Assembly (NCBI GenBank): GCA_021325455.1
Contig: JAJPHD010000003.1
Coordinates: 1-64,000, forward strand
Source: Actinomycetota bacterium
Lineage (GTDB): Bacteria > Actinomycetota > Acidimicrobiia > Acidimicrobiales > JAJPHD01
Length of the DNA: 64,000 nucleotides
Direction of reading: 5' to 3'
Shown: positions 54,170 through 64,000 of the stretch, one piece after another
How positions within the stretch are numbered: position 1 is the stretch's first letter
Layout of the letters: every line of letters begins with the position of its first letter
Translations under genes and position numbers: made by a program
Notes under the pieces: generated by a model
The model's database searches: none
What the model was told of the DNA's origin: nothing
Seen by the model: only the letters and a program-made list of their open reading frames with translations

Positions 54170-54244
54170 CGGGCTGTGGCGCAGCTTGGTTAGCGCGCTT
54201 GACTGGGGGTCAAGAGGTCCCGGGTTCAAATCCCGGCAGCCCGA
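54170..54244 (+). tRNA. tRNA-Pro (anticodon GGG)
   Basis: The 7-bp acceptor stem CGGGCTG/CAGCCCG, D-loop AGCTTGGTTAGC, anticodon stem-loop CTTGA-CTGGGGG-TCAAG with GGG at 34-36, and T-arm with GGTTCAAATCC fold properly. The discriminator base is A. CCA is not encoded. It reads CCC and CCU codons. Confidence 0.97.
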
Positions 54245-54252
54245 CGAAGAGC

Positions 54253-54443: not shown

Positions 54444-55157
54444 ATGAGCCTGCCAGAGACCCATGCAGCCGGCCCCTCTGCTGCCCTCAGCTCGGCCGGG
54501 CCCCCCCACCTCGGCCACGATGACCTGGTGAGAGCCCAGGCCGAGACCGAGGCCACGCCCAGGCGCCGCTACGGGCTGGCGGCCCGCAGCCTCTTCTCCC
54601 TCCTCGACGCCCTCTACGGCAAGGGGCGGACCCTTTCCAAGTTCAAGGTGCTGGAGCTGGTGGCCCGGGTGCCCTACCAGTCCTGGGAGCAGGTGGCCTA
54701 CATAGCCATCACCCATGTCCATGAGCGCACCGGTCTGGCCCGGCGCATCCATGAGCGGGTGATCGAGTCCCGCTCCCAGCAGGACAACGAGGGATGGCAC
54801 CTGCTCATCCTGGAGGAGCTAGTGGCCCGCCAGGGGGGGAAGGAGAGTTGGCTGCGCTACTGGCTCATCCCCCAGGTCCTGTCCTTCGCCTACTACCAGC
54901 TCTCCTTCCTCCTCTTCACCCTCCACCCCTCCTGGAGCTACCGCCTCAATGCCGACTTCGAGGACCACGCCGAGCACGAGTACATGGCCCTGGTGGCAGA
55001 GCACCCCGAATGGGAGGACGAGCCCTTCGAGTCCTCCTTCGCCGAGGACTATGGGCCCTTCCAGTCGCTGGCCGACCTGTTCCGCCAGATCGGCCACGAC
55101 GAGCGGGTCCACAAGCAGGAGAGCCTGGCCCGGATGGGCGAGGCCAGGTTCAGGTGA
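54444..55157 (+). CDS. Alternative oxidase/plastid terminal oxidase-like di-iron quinol oxidase
   Basis: This 237-residue protein aligns with plastid terminal oxidases and AOX over about residues 63-232. All six expected iron ligands appear: E94 (HVHERTG), E116 and H119 (DNEGWHLLILEEL), E173 (DFEDHAEHEY), and E220 and H223 (GHDERVH). Shared flanks include LELVARVPY and YYQLSFLLFTLHPSWSYR. Such enzymes oxidise quinol and reduce oxygen to water without pumping protons, attached to one face of the membrane. AGGTGGGA precedes ATG 54444. Family assignment is by eye and should be checked against other di-iron proteins. Confidence 0.85.
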   Translation: MSLPETHAAGPSAALSSAGPPHLGHDDLVRAQAETEATPRRRYGLAARSLFSLLDALYGKGRTLSKFKVLELVARVPYQSWEQVAYIAITHVHERTGLARRIHERVIESRSQQDNEGWHLLILEELVARQGGKESWLRYWLIPQVLSFAYYQLSFLLFTLHPSWSYRLNADFEDHAEHEYMALVAEHPEWEDEPFESSFAEDYGPFQSLADLFRQIGHDERVHKQESLARMGEARFR

Positions 55158-55586: not shown

Positions 55587-56207
55587 TCAGACAGCCGCCG
55601 TGCCGATGAGGCCCCGGCGGGTGACGAGGCCGGCCAGTGCGTCCTCCGCCATCCCCTCGGTGCCCGCCGGCCGGCGGGGGACCACCATGTAGCGGGTCTC
55701 GGCGCTGGCGTCCCAGACCCTCACCTCCACGTGGCCCGGCAGGTGGAGGCCGAACTCCTCCAGCACCTCACGGGGGCGCCGGACCACGCGGGAACGGTAG
55801 GCCTCGCTGCGGTACCAGGACGGTGAGGGCCCCAGCAGGGCCAGGGGATAGCACGAGCACAGGGTGCACACCACGACGTTGTGGAGCCGGGGAGTGTTCT
55901 CCACCACCCGCAGGAGCTGGGGTTGGATCCCGCCCCCCATGCTGAAGCCGAGCTCCGCCACGGCGGCGTTGCCGTCGGCGAGCAGGCGGTGGCGAAAGCC
56001 CTCGTCCACCCAGGCCCGGGCCACCACGCGGGCACCGTTCGCCGGCTTGGCGGTGGCGAGGTAGCGGTCGAGGATGGCGTCCAGCTCGGCCCCGGTGACG
56101 ACGCCAGCCGCTTCAAGGAGCTCCTCCAGCCGGCGCTGGCGCCGGGCCAGCCTGGAGTCAGGGTGGCCATCTTCTCTTTGCCCCCGGGAGCGGGTGGGGA
56201 CGCTCAC
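55587..56207 (-). CDS. Cobalt-type nitrile hydratase alpha/thiocyanate hydrolase gamma subunit
   Basis: This 206-residue metal-binding subunit carries the claw-setting motif VCTLCSCYP with C114, C117, S118 and C119. The CTLCSC form goes with cobalt rather than iron. Flanking VVENTPRLHNVVV and GPSPSWYRSEAYRSRVVRRP are family hallmarks. It hydrates nitriles to amides, or thiocyanate in the SCNase branch. It overlaps the preceding subunit gene by GTGA. No activator or cobalt transporter gene is next to it. Confidence 0.92.
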   Translation of the reverse strand: MSVPTRSRGQREDGHPDSRLARRQRRLEELLEAAGVVTGAELDAILDRYLATAKPANGARVVARAWVDEGFRHRLLADGNAAVAELGFSMGGGIQPQLLRVVENTPRLHNVVVCTLCSCYPLALLGPSPSWYRSEAYRSRVVRRPREVLEEFGLHLPGHVEVRVWDASAETRYMVVPRRPAGTEGMAEDALAGLVTRRGLIGTAAV

Positions 56208-56572
56208 GGCCCCGTCCCCTGGAGGGGGAGAGGCTCGAGGTACGCCTCCCAGAGGTTCACGGTGACGCTGTGGTCGCCCTCCCCCCAGAGGTCGGCGGCG
56301 CTGAAGCGCACGGCGTACACCGGCTCCATGGCAGGCGGGTGGGCTCCGGTCACCACGTCGTCGGGCCGCGGGTGGACGCCGTGCACCTCCACGACCACGC
56401 CCCTGTGCCCCCTCACGTAGCGGGGGGCCCGGGTGTGGTGGGGCGGGTCTAGGGCCTTCACCACCACCGTCTCACCGGGCCGGAACCGCTCACCCGGAGG
56501 GGACCCCTCCGCTCCTGGCCCCGACCGGGGCGGCTCGAGGGCCCTGCCGGTGGCCCCACCCTCGTCTTTCAC
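56204..56572 (-). CDS. Nitrile hydratase beta C-terminal-half/SCNase alpha-type subunit
   Basis: This 122-residue protein corresponds to the C-terminal SH3-like barrel of nitrile hydratase beta: FRPGETVVVKALDPPHHTRA, YVRGHRGVVVEVHGVHPRPD, YAVRFSAADLWGEG and NLWEAYLEPL. GTG 56572 overlaps the previous stop as GTGA, so it is a separate gene rather than a frameshift. The first 35 residues are a Pro/Gly-rich linker. Confidence 0.88.
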   Translation of the reverse strand: MKDEGGATGRALEPPRSGPGAEGSPPGERFRPGETVVVKALDPPHHTRAPRYVRGHRGVVVEVHGVHPRPDDVVTGAHPPAMEPVYAVRFSAADLWGEGDHSVTVNLWEAYLEPLPLQGTGP

Positions 56573-56907
56573 CGGCCCCGCCCCTCCCCCGAGCCCCTCG
56601 GGCCCGGTCCGGGGGCGTCCCCGCCCTCCTCTTCGAGGTCGCCCGGGGCGACCAGGCCCTTCTTCACCGCCAGGCCCTCCAGCGCCTCCAGCCAACGTTC
56701 GTAGTAGCTGCTGGCCAGGTAGCGCTCCGGCGCCAGATGCTCTATGGCATCCCTGAACTCGTCCAACGTGTACGCCTGGCGGCGGATGAGGGCGGTGTTG
56801 AGAGCGAACACCCGGGCCTCCCAGTCGGCATGGAAGGCGCGGCCGTCCTCGGTCGGGTCCACGGGCCCGAACCCCTCCATGCCCCCCACGTCGTGGATCC
56901 TGGTCAC
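56569..56907 (-). CDS. Nitrile hydratase beta N-terminal-half/SCNase beta-type subunit
   Basis: This 112-residue protein matches the N-terminal helical part of nitrile hydratase beta, MTRIHDVGGMEGFGPV then FHADWEARVFALNTALI and YLASSYYERWLEALEGLAVK. The order beta-like, alpha-like, gamma-like is that of scnBAC of thiocyanate hydrolase. The GTG start has TAGCGT 6 nt upstream. A Gly/Glu/Arg-rich tail precedes the overlap with the next gene. Confidence 0.88.
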   Translation of the reverse strand: MTRIHDVGGMEGFGPVDPTEDGRAFHADWEARVFALNTALIRRQAYTLDEFRDAIEHLAPERYLASSYYERWLEALEGLAVKKGLVAPGDLEEEGGDAPGPGPRGSGEGRGR

Positions 56908-57013: not shown

Positions 57014-57271
57014 GTGGAGTCGCTCAATCAACCAGATGGCCCAGTGGTTCGGCGCCCGAACAACTGGAGCCTCTGGCTCCTCCTGATTCCCTTTGTCGCC
57101 ACCCTCGTCCCCCCCTTCTACAACCGGGTCAACCCGACCATCGGCGGACTGCCCTTCTTCGACTGGTACCTGCTGGTGTGGGTGGTCGTGACGGCGGCCA
57201 TCCTGACCACGGTTTACACGTTGCGCCGGCCGAGGTCGGGCCCCGGCGAGAACCGGACCGGGCAGGCATGA
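57014..57271 (+). CDS. DUF3311 small membrane protein
   Basis: This protein of about 85 residues has two membrane helices, LWLLLIPFVATLVPPFYNRV and FFDWYLLVWVVVTAAILTTV, joined by NPTIGGLPFFDWY, the DUF3311 pattern. Such proteins are encoded ahead of sodium:solute symporters and are probably an accessory subunit, like YhdT/DUF997 with PanF. It overlaps the symporter gene by ATGA. An ATG at 56981 is in frame but falls in the promoter. Confidence 0.88.
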   Translation: MESLNQPDGPVVRRPNNWSLWLLLIPFVATLVPPFYNRVNPTIGGLPFFDWYLLVWVVVTAAILTTVYTLRRPRSGPGENRTGQA

Positions 57272-58788
57272 TTGCCACCATCAAAGCCTCCCAGCTGGCG
57301 GTCTTCGCCATCCTCTTCGGTGGCATCACGGTCGTGGGGTTCGCCGCCGCCCGGTGGCGGAGAGGCAACCTGGCCGAGCTGACGGAGTGGGGGCTCGGGG
57401 GCCGTCGGTTCGGGACCTTCGTCACCTGGTACCTCCTCGGCGGTGACCTCTACACCGCCTACACGTTCGTGGCCGTCCCCGCCCTGGTATTCGGCAAAGG
57501 CGCATTCGGTCTGTTCGCCCTGCCCTACACCATCATCGTGTTCCCCGTCATCTACGTGGTGATGCCCAAGCTGTGGCAGGTCTCTCGCAATCGGGGCTAC
57601 GTCACCGCCTCGGACTTCGTGAAGGAGCGCTTCGACAGCCCCCTCCTGGCCGGCCTGGTCGGCATCACGGGGATCGTGGCCCTGATCCCGTACATCGCCC
57701 TGCAGATCTACGGCATCGAGGTGTCCATCGCCGAGATGGGCATCCCCGTGGACGCCTCCCTTACGGTGGCCTTCGTCGTCCTCGTGATCTTCACGGCCGT
57801 GAGCGGCCTGCGTGCCCCCACCCTGATTGCGGCCATCAAGGACACCCTCATATGGATCACGGTCCTGGTGGCCGTCATCTACCTGCCCATACGCCTGGGG
57901 GGTTACGGCTTCATCTTCCACCATGTCCCGGCAGCCCAGCTCACCCTGCCCCCCAAGCTGTTCAACGGCTATTGGACCTACGCCTTGGGGTCGGCCCTGT
58001 TCCTCTTCCTGTATCCGCACTCCATCACGGGCACCCTCAGCGCCTCCAGCAAGAGGGCCGTCGAGCGCAATGCCGCCATCCTGCCCTTCTACTCGATCCT
58101 GCTGGGGCTGATCGCCCTGCTGGGCTATTTCGCCCTCGCGGCGGGCATCCACCCGTCCAAGGCCTACGGGGCCAACAGCATCGTCCCGGCCCTGTTCGAG
58201 AAGTTCTTCCCCGGGCCTTTCGCCGGGTTCGCCTTCGCGGCCATCTCCATAGGCGCCCTGGTCCCGGCAGCCATCATGTCGGTCAGTGCCGCCAACGTCT
58301 TCAGTCGCAACATCTGGCACCAGTACATCCGGCCCCAGGGCAGCGCCCGGGAGGAAGCCAACGTGGCCAAGGTCGTGTCGGCCATCATCAAGTTCGGCGC
58401 CTTGGCCTTCATCCTCGCCGTCACGACCCAGTACGTCCTCTACTTCCAGACCGCCGGCGGCGCCTGGATCCTCCAGACGCTGCCTGCCGTCTTCCTCGCC
58501 GTGTGGTTCGGATGGATGGACCGTTGGGCGACCATCGCCGGGTGGGCGGTGGGGATCGGCTGGACCACCTACCTACTCGTGGAGGAGGGCTTCAAGACCT
58601 CCACGTACAGCTTCGGCTTCCTCGGTCACCTGACCATCTTCCTGGGCCTGCCCCCTCTCATCGCCAACCTCATCGTGGCCTTTGGCGGCACAGCCCTCCT
58701 GCGTGCCCTCGGCGTGCGCCGGCAGCCCTCCTACGGGCCGGCCGAGTTCGAGGTGGACCGGCCCGCGGCCGTGGCCCCGCCCTCCTAG
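57268..58788 (+). CDS. Sodium:solute symporter (monocarboxylate/MctC-like)
   Basis: This 506-residue transporter has about 13 hydrophobic helices of the SSS fold. LTEWGLGGRRFGTFVTWYLL matches the first repeat, and YPHSITGTLSASSKRAVERN is characteristic of the acetate/pyruvate/propionate subfamily (MctC and PutP-related). It should couple uptake of a small carboxylate to sodium or protons. The substrate is inferred from the subfamily only. Confidence 0.9.
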   Translation: MIATIKASQLAVFAILFGGITVVGFAAARWRRGNLAELTEWGLGGRRFGTFVTWYLLGGDLYTAYTFVAVPALVFGKGAFGLFALPYTIIVFPVIYVVMPKLWQVSRNRGYVTASDFVKERFDSPLLAGLVGITGIVALIPYIALQIYGIEVSIAEMGIPVDASLTVAFVVLVIFTAVSGLRAPTLIAAIKDTLIWITVLVAVIYLPIRLGGYGFIFHHVPAAQLTLPPKLFNGYWTYALGSALFLFLYPHSITGTLSASSKRAVERNAAILPFYSILLGLIALLGYFALAAGIHPSKAYGANSIVPALFEKFFPGPFAGFAFAAISIGALVPAAIMSVSAANVFSRNIWHQYIRPQGSAREEANVAKVVSAIIKFGALAFILAVTTQYVLYFQTAGGAWILQTLPAVFLAVWFGWMDRWATIAGWAVGIGWTTYLLVEEGFKTSTYSFGFLGHLTIFLGLPPLIANLIVAFGGTALLRALGVRRQPSYGPAEFEVDRPAAVAPPS

Positions 58789-59635: not shown

Positions 59636-60604
59636 TCAGCTCCAGATGGTGACGTAGACGGGCGGGCGGAACCGCGAGGGGGGGACTCCCCGTACGGGGG
59701 AGTGCATGGCCTGGGTGGCAATGGGGGTCCCGATGAAGCGCCCCAGCGCCGAGGCGGCCGGGCTGCGCCGGGTGGGGGCGAGCATGGTGGCGTGCCACAG
59801 CAGCTCGAGGGGGGTCTCCTCCACGTGCAGGGCCACGAGGGACCCCCGCTCGAGCTCACCCGCCACGAGGTGGGCCACCGCCGGCGCCACTCCCTCTCCC
59901 TCCTCGGCTGCCACCCAGGCGGCGGCCTGGCTGGGGAACACCCGGACCTGGCCCTCGGGGACGCCCAGCCGGGCGAGGATGCGCCTGACCGGGGAGCCGG
60001 CCTCGGTGGCGTCGGGGTCGACCAGGAAGGACTGGCCCGAGAGGGCGGCGAGCGGCAGGCGCCCGGCCCGGGCCAGGCAGTGCGAGGGGGCGGCCACGAA
60101 GACCAGCCGGTAGCGCAGGAGGGGCAGGGACTCGAGGCCGGCGCCAGGGCCCGGGGCGAGGGCGGGGCCGAGGGCCACGTCGGCCAGCCTCTCCTGGAGG
60201 ACGGCGGCCATCTCGGCGCTCGTGGCCACCCCCAGGGAAACCTCGATGCCGGCACCGGAGCGGGTGCTGAAGGCGGCCAGGAGGGCGGGGGCCACCGACT
60301 CGGCCAGGGCGCTGGTGGCCACCACCCGCAGCCGCTCGGGGGCGCCCCGGGCCTGGCGGATGGCGGCCTCGGCCTCGGCGGCGAGCGCCACCATCTGGGA
60401 GGCCACGCTCACCAGCCTGCGCCCACCGGCTGTGAGCACCATCCCTCCCGGGCCTCGCTGCACCAGGGGGTCTCCCAGCTGCTGGCGCAGGGCCGCCAGG
60501 GCGCCGGAGACGGCCGGCTCGCTGACGCCCAGCGCTCGGGCCGCCGCTGTCACCGAGCCCAGCCTGGCCACCAGGACGAAGGCCTCGAGCTGGGTGATGG
60601 TCAC
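59636..60604 (-). CDS. LysR-family regulator divergent from coxMSL (CutR-like)
   Basis: This 322-residue protein has the LysR HTH at about 1-60 (TITQLEAFVLVARLGSVTAA, ALGVSEPAVSGALAALRQQL) and a periplasmic-binding-like effector domain at about 90-290. In Mycobacterium a divergent LysR gene, cutR, activates CO dehydrogenase, so this is a likely counterpart. The start GTG 60604 has GGAGG upstream, although close. A palindrome fitting LysR binding lies between the divergent genes. Confidence 0.88.
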   Translation of the reverse strand: MTITQLEAFVLVARLGSVTAAARALGVSEPAVSGALAALRQQLGDPLVQRGPGGMVLTAGGRRLVSVASQMVALAAEAEAAIRQARGAPERLRVVATSALAESVAPALLAAFSTRSGAGIEVSLGVATSAEMAAVLQERLADVALGPALAPGPGAGLESLPLLRYRLVFVAAPSHCLARAGRLPLAALSGQSFLVDPDATEAGSPVRRILARLGVPEGQVRVFPSQAAAWVAAEEGEGVAPAVAHLVAGELERGSLVALHVEETPLELLWHATMLAPTRRSPAASALGRFIGTPIATQAMHSPVRGVPPSRFRPPVYVTIWS

Positions 60605-62115: not shown

Positions 62116-64000
62116 CCACCGCCGAGGCCCCCCCGGCCAACCCCGTCGGCTTCGGCCGCATGACGCGCAAGGAGGACGCCCGCTTCGTGCGGGGGAAGGG
62201 CACCTACGTGGACGACGTGGTGCTCCCGGGCATGCTCCACGGCGCCGTGCTGCGCTCCAACCTGGCCCATGCCCGCATCGTGTCCATGGACACCTCCGCC
62301 GCCGAGGCCCACCCCAAGGTCAAGGCGGTCATAACCGGCAAGACCCTCGAGGGCCTCAAGCTGGCCTGGATGCCCTCTCTCTCCCACGACGTGGTGCCCG
62401 TGCTCGCCACCGACAAGGTCCGCTACCAGGGGCAGGAGGTGGCCTTCGTGGTGGCCGAGGACCGCTACTCGGCCAGGGACGCCCTGGAGCTCATCGAGGT
62501 GGACTACGAGCCGCTGCCGCCGGTCATGGACGCCCGGGAGGCTCTCTCACCAGGCAGCGCGGTGATCCGCGACGACATCGAGGGGAAGGCCGACAACCAC
62601 ATCTTCGACTGGGAGGCCGGCGACCGGTCCGCCACCGACCAGGTCTTCGAGCGGGCCGAGGTGGTGGTGACCCAGGACATGCTCTACCCGAGGGTGCACC
62701 CCGCCCCCATGGAGACCTGTGGGGCGGTGGCCCACATGGACAAGGTGAGCGGCAAGCTCACGATCTGGTGCACGACGCAGGCCCCCCACGCCCACCGCAC
62801 CCTCTACGCCCTGGTGGCCGGGCTGCCCGAGCACAAGATCCGGGTCATCAGCCCCGACATCGGTGGCGGCTTCGGCAACAAGGTGGGCATCTACCCCGGC
62901 TACGTGCTGGCTGTGGTGGGCTCCATCCTCACCGGGGCGCCGGTCAAGTGGACCGAGGACCGTTCCGAGAACCTCATGTCCACCAGCTTCGCCCGCGACT
63001 ACCACATGCACGGGGAGATCGCCTCCACCCGGGACGGCAGGATCACGGGCCTGCGGGTGAAGGTGCTGGCCGACCACGGGGCGTTCAACAACACGGCCCA
63101 GCCCTCCAAGTTCCCCGCCGGGTTCTTCCACGTGTTCACCGGCTCCTACGACCTGGAGGCGGCCCACTGCGAGGTCACCGGGGTGTACACCAACAAGGCG
63201 CCCGGCGGGGTGGCCTACGCCTGCTCCTTCCGGGTGACCGAGGCCGTGTACCTGGTGGAGCGCATGGTCGACTGCCTGGCCGACGAGCTGGGCATGGACC
63301 CCGCCGAGCTCAGGCTCAAGAACCTCCTGCGCCCCGAGCAGTTCCCCTACATGAGCAAGACGGGATGGGAGTACGACTCGGGTGACTACCCGCGGGCCCT
63401 CCGGTTGGCCATGGACATCGCCGGGTACGAGCAGCTGCGAGCCGAGCAGGAGCGCCGGCGCCGGGCCCCGGCCCCGCAAGGGGCCCCGGCCCCCCTGATG
63501 GGCATCGGGGTCTCGTTCTTCACCGAGACGGTCGGCGCCGGCCCCCGCAAGCACATGGACATCCTGGGCCTGGGAATGGCCGACGGGGCCGAGGTGCGCG
63601 TCCACCCGACCGGGAAGGCCGTGGTGCGCCTGTCGGTCCAGACCCAGGGCCAAGGGCACGAGACCACCTTCGCCCAGATCGTGGCCGAGCAGCTGGGCAT
63701 CCCTCCGGAGGACATCGAGGTGGTGCACGGCGACACCGACAACACGCCCTTCGGCCTGGGCACGTACGGCTCCCGGTCCACTCCCGTGTCGGGGGCGGCG
63801 GTGGCCGTGGCCGCCCGGCGGGTGAGGGACAAGGCCCGCCTCATCGCATCGGCCATGCTCGAGGTGGACCCCGACGACCTCGAGTGGGAGAAGGGGCGCT
63901 GGTTCGTGAGGGGCAACCCCACCTCGGCCCGGACCATCCAGGAGATAGCCCTGGCTGCCCACGGTCCCCTCGAGCTGCCCGAGGGGGTGGAGGGCCACCT
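62112..64000 (+). CDS. coxL: CO dehydrogenase large subunit, Form I (3' end outside window)
   Basis: The first 629 residues of the molybdenum hydroxylase large subunit are in view, out of roughly 800. The active-site loop AYACSFR (368-374, with Cys371) is the AYXCSFR signature of Form I, the true aerobic CO dehydrogenase that binds Cu-S-Mo. The motif GGGFGNKVGIYPGYV and QGQGHETTFAQIVAEQLGIP are also typical. The ATGA overlap with coxS and the M-S-L order agree with known cox operons. Accessory genes would lie beyond the window. Confidence 0.96.
   Translation, partial: MTTAEAPPANPVGFGRMTRKEDARFVRGKGTYVDDVVLPGMLHGAVLRSNLAHARIVSMDTSAAEAHPKVKAVITGKTLEGLKLAWMPSLSHDVVPVLATDKVRYQGQEVAFVVAEDRYSARDALELIEVDYEPLPPVMDAREALSPGSAVIRDDIEGKADNHIFDWEAGDRSATDQVFERAEVVVTQDMLYPRVHPAPMETCGAVAHMDKVSGKLTIWCTTQAPHAHRTLYALVAGLPEHKIRVISPDIGGGFGNKVGIYPGYVLAVVGSILTGAPVKWTEDRSENLMSTSFARDYHMHGEIASTRDGRITGLRVKVLADHGAFNNTAQPSKFPAGFFHVFTGSYDLEAAHCEVTGVYTNKAPGGVAYACSFRVTEAVYLVERMVDCLADELGMDPAELRLKNLLRPEQFPYMSKTGWEYDSGDYPRALRLAMDIAGYEQLRAEQERRRRAPAPQGAPAPLMGIGVSFFTETVGAGPRKHMDILGLGMADGAEVRVHPTGKAVVRLSVQTQGQGHETTFAQIVAEQLGIPPEDIEVVHGDTDNTPFGLGTYGSRSTPVSGAAVAVAARRVRDKARLIASAMLEVDPDDLEWEKGRWFVRGNPTSARTIQEIALAAHGPLELPEGVEGH

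Follow-up and report, generated by a model that had tools for sequence, protein, structure and literature searches.

An alternative oxidase superfamily protein from an acidimicrobiial actinomycetotan belongs to a third bacterial clade outside AOX and PTOX

The 64,000-nucleotide stretch of DNA analysed here (the window) encodes a 237-amino-acid protein which is a real member of the alternative oxidase (AOX) superfamily and which falls in a distinct bacterial third clade, neither plastid terminal oxidase (PTOX) nor classical AOX. In plants and trypanosomes, the alternative oxidase hands electrons directly from quinols in the membrane to oxygen. We consider it quite probable that the window protein acts in a comparable way, as a stand-alone, monotopic, single-subunit di-iron quinol:O2 oxidoreductase which pumps no protons and serves as an overflow valve or bypass, with menaquinol the most likely quinol.

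A December 2025 survey places prokaryotic AOX only in the Alpha-, Beta- and Gammaproteobacteria (Pseudomonadota) and PTOX only in Cyanobacteria, and it reconstructs the age and transfer of both enzymes from that distribution (PMC7618691). A 2022 review considers the distribution of prokaryotic AOX uncertain and names only proteobacteria (PMC9246349). Searches of the open-access literature on AOX in Actinobacteria, Rokubacteria or Omnitrophota, or on AOX with menaquinol, brought up no account of the clade, which is apparently undescribed. The presence of a deep third clade in six or more phyla alters the known distribution of AOX and PTOX and could alter the rooting of their evolution.

The gene, its host and its neighborhood

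The oxidase gene opens with an ATG at 54444, just 5′ of which stands a Shine-Dalgarno-like stretch, AAGGTGGG, and its stop codon ends at 55157. The gene and the neighboring features discussed below are:

54444–55157, + strand: coding sequence for an AOX-superfamily di-iron quinol oxidase (predicted activity), 237 amino acids; identified by Pfam AOX, an 83-member alignment, an AlphaFold model and fold matches in the PDB
54170–54245, + strand: tRNA-Pro (GGG), immediately upstream of the oxidase gene and outside the system
55587–56907, − strand: split nitrile hydratase-type enzyme in three open reading frames, with the beta subunit divided between two genes, one N-terminal and one C-terminal, and with CTLCSC, a Co-type motif, in the alpha subunit
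60743–64463, running past the window end at 64000: form I aerobic CO dehydrogenase genes coxM, coxS and coxL, the last with an AYACSFR motif and 1335 bits against TIGR02416

This is the sole AOX-family gene found in the 2.95-Mb host genome. Contamination is an unlikely source, because the gene is internal to a contig of 109.5 kb and is most closely related to actinobacterial genes. The host, called an actinomycete in an earlier note on this DNA, does belong to the Actinomycetota, but it is an acidimicrobiial actinomycetotan rather than an actinomycete sensu stricto. We rejected tRNA-linked mobility, as the tRNA-Pro gene directly upstream here is absent beside relatives.

Searches of the host genome found two genes for subunit I of heme-copper oxidases and none for cytochrome bd; the window gene would therefore be the sole heme-free oxidase route among those searched. 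Occurrence of the family is patchy: 7 of 59 same-order genomes carry it, as do 5 of 396 genomes drawn from across the phylum. Among the 59 same-order genomes, cytochrome bd was present in 1 of the 7 carriers versus 14 of the 52 others (Fisher p = 0.67, not significant), and the idea that the oxidase replaces cytochrome bd was rejected.

CO dehydrogenase and nitrile hydratase genes both lie within about 6 kb of the oxidase gene, which hints at a function when CO or cyanide stresses the cell, and AOX-type enzymes are in general cyanide-insensitive. The protein might thus be a specialised accessory oxidase, tolerant of CO and cyanide, that the neighboring cox and nitrile hydratase genes have drawn into CO oxidation and nitrile or thiocyanate metabolism. 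We regard such recruitment as unlikely: the co-occurrence of form I coxL with the oxidase was not statistically significant across the 59 same-order genomes (Fisher p 0.11–0.34), the oxidase gene is a lone gene in convergent orientation to those for nitrile hydratase, and no gene family recurs beside the relatives. Conserved partner genes were found only among closely related Rokubacteria or Pseudonocardiales, and the absence of a shared operon partner is as expected for a one-gene oxidase.

Several other features of this region were recorded. The split of the beta subunit resembles that of thiocyanate hydrolase, while the top-scoring model for the alpha subunit is nitrile hydratase, with a score slightly below the cut-off. 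A LysR regulator gene (59636–60604) is divergent from the CO dehydrogenase genes, and at 57044–58788 (+ strand) a DUF3311 gene is followed directly by a gene for an MctP-like monocarboxylate sodium symporter.

Family membership and predicted fold

Scanning 84,980 prokaryotic species genomes identified relatives at 158 loci. The best 80 of these show 53–77% identity and come from Actinomycetota, Rokubacteria/Methylomirabilota, Omnitrophota, Elusimicrobiota, Myxococcota/Deltaproteobacteria and Candidatus Manganitrophus (Nitrospirota). The window protein matched the Pfam AOX model (PF01786) with E = 2.3e-8 and a score of 34.4 bits (cut-off 22.7). Since this score exceeds the cut-off and homologues at such identities occur across many phyla, chance is excluded as the source of the AOX assignment. 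The same model matched all 51 family members scanned, whereas COQ7 appeared as a weak second match in 13 of them (best E 7e-4). NCBIfam holds no model naming this oxidase family.

All six di-iron ligands of alternative oxidases can be placed, as the earlier note had proposed: E71, E116, H119, E173, E220 and H223, four glutamates and two histidines, are each invariant in 83 of 83 aligned members. So are N115, Y180 and D219, the equivalents of Asn161, Tyr220 and Asp265 in the trypanosomal alternative oxidase (TAO); Y180 corresponds to the catalytic tyrosine. The ligand motifs are distributed along the gene as follows:

54639–54677, + strand: ligand motif 1, KFKVLELVARVPY, with ligand E71 and with K66 at the position of TAO Arg118
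54783–54809, + strand: ligand motif 2, DNEGWHLLI, with ligands E116 and H119
54957–54983, + strand: ligand motif 3, FEDHAEHEY, with ligand E173, with H175 and E179 in the quinol pocket, and with Y180 at TAO Tyr220
55095–55115, + strand: ligand motif 4, HDERVHK, with ligands E220 and H223

An AlphaFold model built from a 51-row alignment reached a mean pLDDT of 92.9. In a Foldseek search of the PDB with this model, matches 1–14 were all TAO (E 1.5e-5 to 6.8e-4, probability 1.00, TM about 0.6–0.69), and ferritin-like folds trailed far behind, with COQ7:COQ9 in 15th place (E 0.23, TM 0.30) and bacterioferritin beyond E 1. The best matches thus fell to an alternative oxidase and not to a ferritin-like or desaturase-like di-iron family. 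Because phmmer and profile searches against PDB sequences gave unrelated weak matches only, the structural link to TAO comes from the fold search.

COQ7, the demethoxyubiquinone hydroxylase, is also a ferritin-like di-iron helical bundle acting on a quinone, and the window protein might conceivably be a monooxygenase or quinone-modifying enzyme of this type, hydroxylating a quinone or another lipid while keeping an AOX-like fold. The weak Pfam matches in some members, the long stem of the family and its altered quinol-pocket residues (both described below) could be read in this way. However, AOX scores are far stronger and occur in all members, the similarity to COQ7 is much weaker in sequence and in fold alike, the three AOX residues equivalent to Asn161, Tyr220 and Asp265 are invariant, and the relatives share no neighboring gene of any kind. 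Hydroxylation is therefore improbable, and we continue to favor a quinol oxidase.

The N-terminus, an extension of about 60 residues, had been thought unusual, but most of it proved to be a helix conserved throughout the family, and variability with low model confidence is confined to residues 1–23:

54444–54512, + strand: variable N-terminal tail, residues 1–23, pLDDT about 57–60, poorly conserved in the 83-member alignment
54516–54617, + strand: conserved N-terminal element of the family, residues 25–58, comprising helix 25–37 and a probable membrane-side helix 45–58 (alignment and model)

Conservation extends over residues ∼28–58 (Q32 in 92%, T35 in 90%, P39 in 86%, R40 in 92% and Y43 in 94% of members), giving the motif L..EQ..TL..PRRRYG..A..LF. 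As helix 25–37 is conserved family-wide and is mostly missing from cyanobacterial and phage PTOX, it is a hallmark of the family and not an oddity of a single protein.

A clade outside AOX and PTOX

We placed 41 family members in a tree with PTOX from cyanobacteria and cyanophages (9 rows only) and AOX from Legionella, Sphingomonadales, Azospirillum, Photobacterium and Chelatococcus, both taken from annotated plasmid or phage records, and with TAO from the PDB alignment. Two observations concern these references. The “alternative oxidase” of the Chelatococcus sp. CO-6 plasmid (L106:265–924) lacks some of the ligands, with Gln in place of TAO Glu162 and Ala in place of Glu213, and is a degenerate AOX homologue. 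On Nostoc plasmids from two strains (L093 and L097), the PTOX/AOX genes lie near genes for a hexameric tyrosine-coordinated heme protein and a GMC oxidoreductase.

The 41 members grouped as one clade (support 100/100) whose stem measures about 5.9 substitutions per site, and after phage and degenerate sequences were dropped the support was 100/99. The AOX clade was separate from this family (100/100 and 100/99), and the window protein did not fall inside it; with the 9 PTOX rows available, the family was monophyletic outside PTOX in 100% of bootstraps. Nearly all actinobacterial members grouped in one subclade (99/94). The family is placed nearer PTOX, but with few PTOX rows and very long stems, and with long branches meeting in the tree, the root and the sister relation are provisional.

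Mean identities were 27% between the family and PTOX, 20% between the family and AOX, and 22% between AOX and PTOX. The resemblance to PTOX in particular, which the earlier note had pointed out, thus holds for identity and does not extend to membership of PTOX. Common to PTOX and the third clade are the motif LExxARxPY and, at the positions of TAO His206 and Glu215, Tyr and His respectively; the third clade differs in forming its own fully supported clade, in Lys at Arg118 and Glu at Thr219, and in the extra conserved N-terminal helix. That an actinobacterium gained a true PTOX from cyanobacteria is very hard to credit despite the higher identity and these common residues, given the separate clade with its long stem, the single subclade of almost all actinobacterial members, hosts which do not belong to photosynthetic phyla, and the lack of the C-terminal insert between motifs 3 and 4 that is present in the four cyanobacterial PTOX sequences compared here (and is also absent from phage PTOX).

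Compared with mitochondrial and proteobacterial AOX (TAO, PDB 3VV9), the third clade retains the fold, the six ligands, the Asn161, Tyr220 and Asp265 equivalents and the PF01786 match. In contrast, it is only about 20% identical, it forms a separate clade, its hosts mostly carry menaquinone-pathway markers, and it differs at Arg118 (Lys), Thr219 (Glu), Glu215 (His), Arg96 (Phe), His206 (Tyr) and Arg263 (Gly). Characterised members are all distant, at about 20–27% identity.

The quinol pocket and the proposed reaction

TAO cleaves O2 at its di-iron centre, where Tyr220 becomes a radical. Its quinol lies close to Glu215 and to Arg118 and Thr219, which contact it, and the proton acceptors are Glu215, paired with Arg96/Arg93, and Asp100 (PMC11492382). 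In the family alignment, TAO Arg118 is replaced by Lys66 (83/83), Thr219 by Glu179 (82/83), Glu215 by His175 (83/83) and Arg96 by Phe51 (81/83), while Asp100 corresponds to Asp55 (79/83); invariant ligands next to Lys66, His175 and Glu179 fix the alignment there, and the first helix is aligned with less certainty. In this alignment, the residues on the O2 side are retained and the quinol-side cluster is rebuilt relative to TAO. Given the polar changes in the pocket (Phe51, Lys66, His175 and Glu179), the substrate or even the reaction could therefore differ.

In the quinol oxidase reaction that we favor, a quinol, most likely menaquinol, would enter a pocket beside the di-iron centre of E71, E116, H119, E173, E220 and H223, presumably from a membrane to which the protein is attached. 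O2 would be bound and split at the irons with the assistance of Y180, and two quinols would be oxidised for each O2 reduced to water, with neither proton pumping nor heme. Glu179, one helical turn from His175, may act as the proton-accepting carboxylate, with Lys66 as its partner. Such an enzyme would provide an electron overflow valve and a bypass insensitive to heme poisons such as cyanide and CO, beside the two heme-copper oxidases of a genome lacking cytochrome bd.

The host genome encodes MenD (399.6 bits). Among 50 sampled carriers, MenD exceeded the cut-off in 21, and 18 of the other 29 had a full-length MqnA/D match, giving a menaquinone marker in 39. Menaquinol is thus the likely substrate in Actinomycetota. 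The 11 carriers with neither marker are Manganitrophus (Nitrospirota), whose chromosome is titled complete, and draft metagenome-assembled genomes; methyl-plastoquinone is known in Nitrospirota (PMC13386864).

We speculate that the superfamily comprises three quinol-specific classes, in which AOX, PTOX and the third clade would correspond to ubiquinone, plastoquinone and menaquinone (or methyl-plastoquinone), respectively. The third would be a non-heme menaquinol oxidase whose carboxylate has moved from Glu215 to Glu179 with Lys66. This scheme is plausible but tentative. If menaquinol is indeed oxidised, the protein would be a heme-free and copper-free menaquinol oxidase.

Distribution among cultured and uncultured bacteria

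Among the best 80 of the 158 relatives, the actinomycetotan carriers are Pseudonocardiales, Acidimicrobiia, Mycolicibacter, Actinomadura, Nonomuraea, Streptomyces and Granulicoccus. Several of the carriers, such as Mycolicibacter, Pseudonocardia asaccharolytica, Actinomadura and Granulicoccus, are isolates. This rules out assembly contamination as the origin of the family and makes the question of menaquinol oxidation accessible in culturable strains. Viral spread was rejected: a profile search of IMG/VR found no viral relative of the family, and the phage matches were cyanophage PTOX only. In one same-order genome (G016) the oxidase gene is split over contig ends, between the end of C133 and the start of C10 (L008 and L010), probably by an assembly break.
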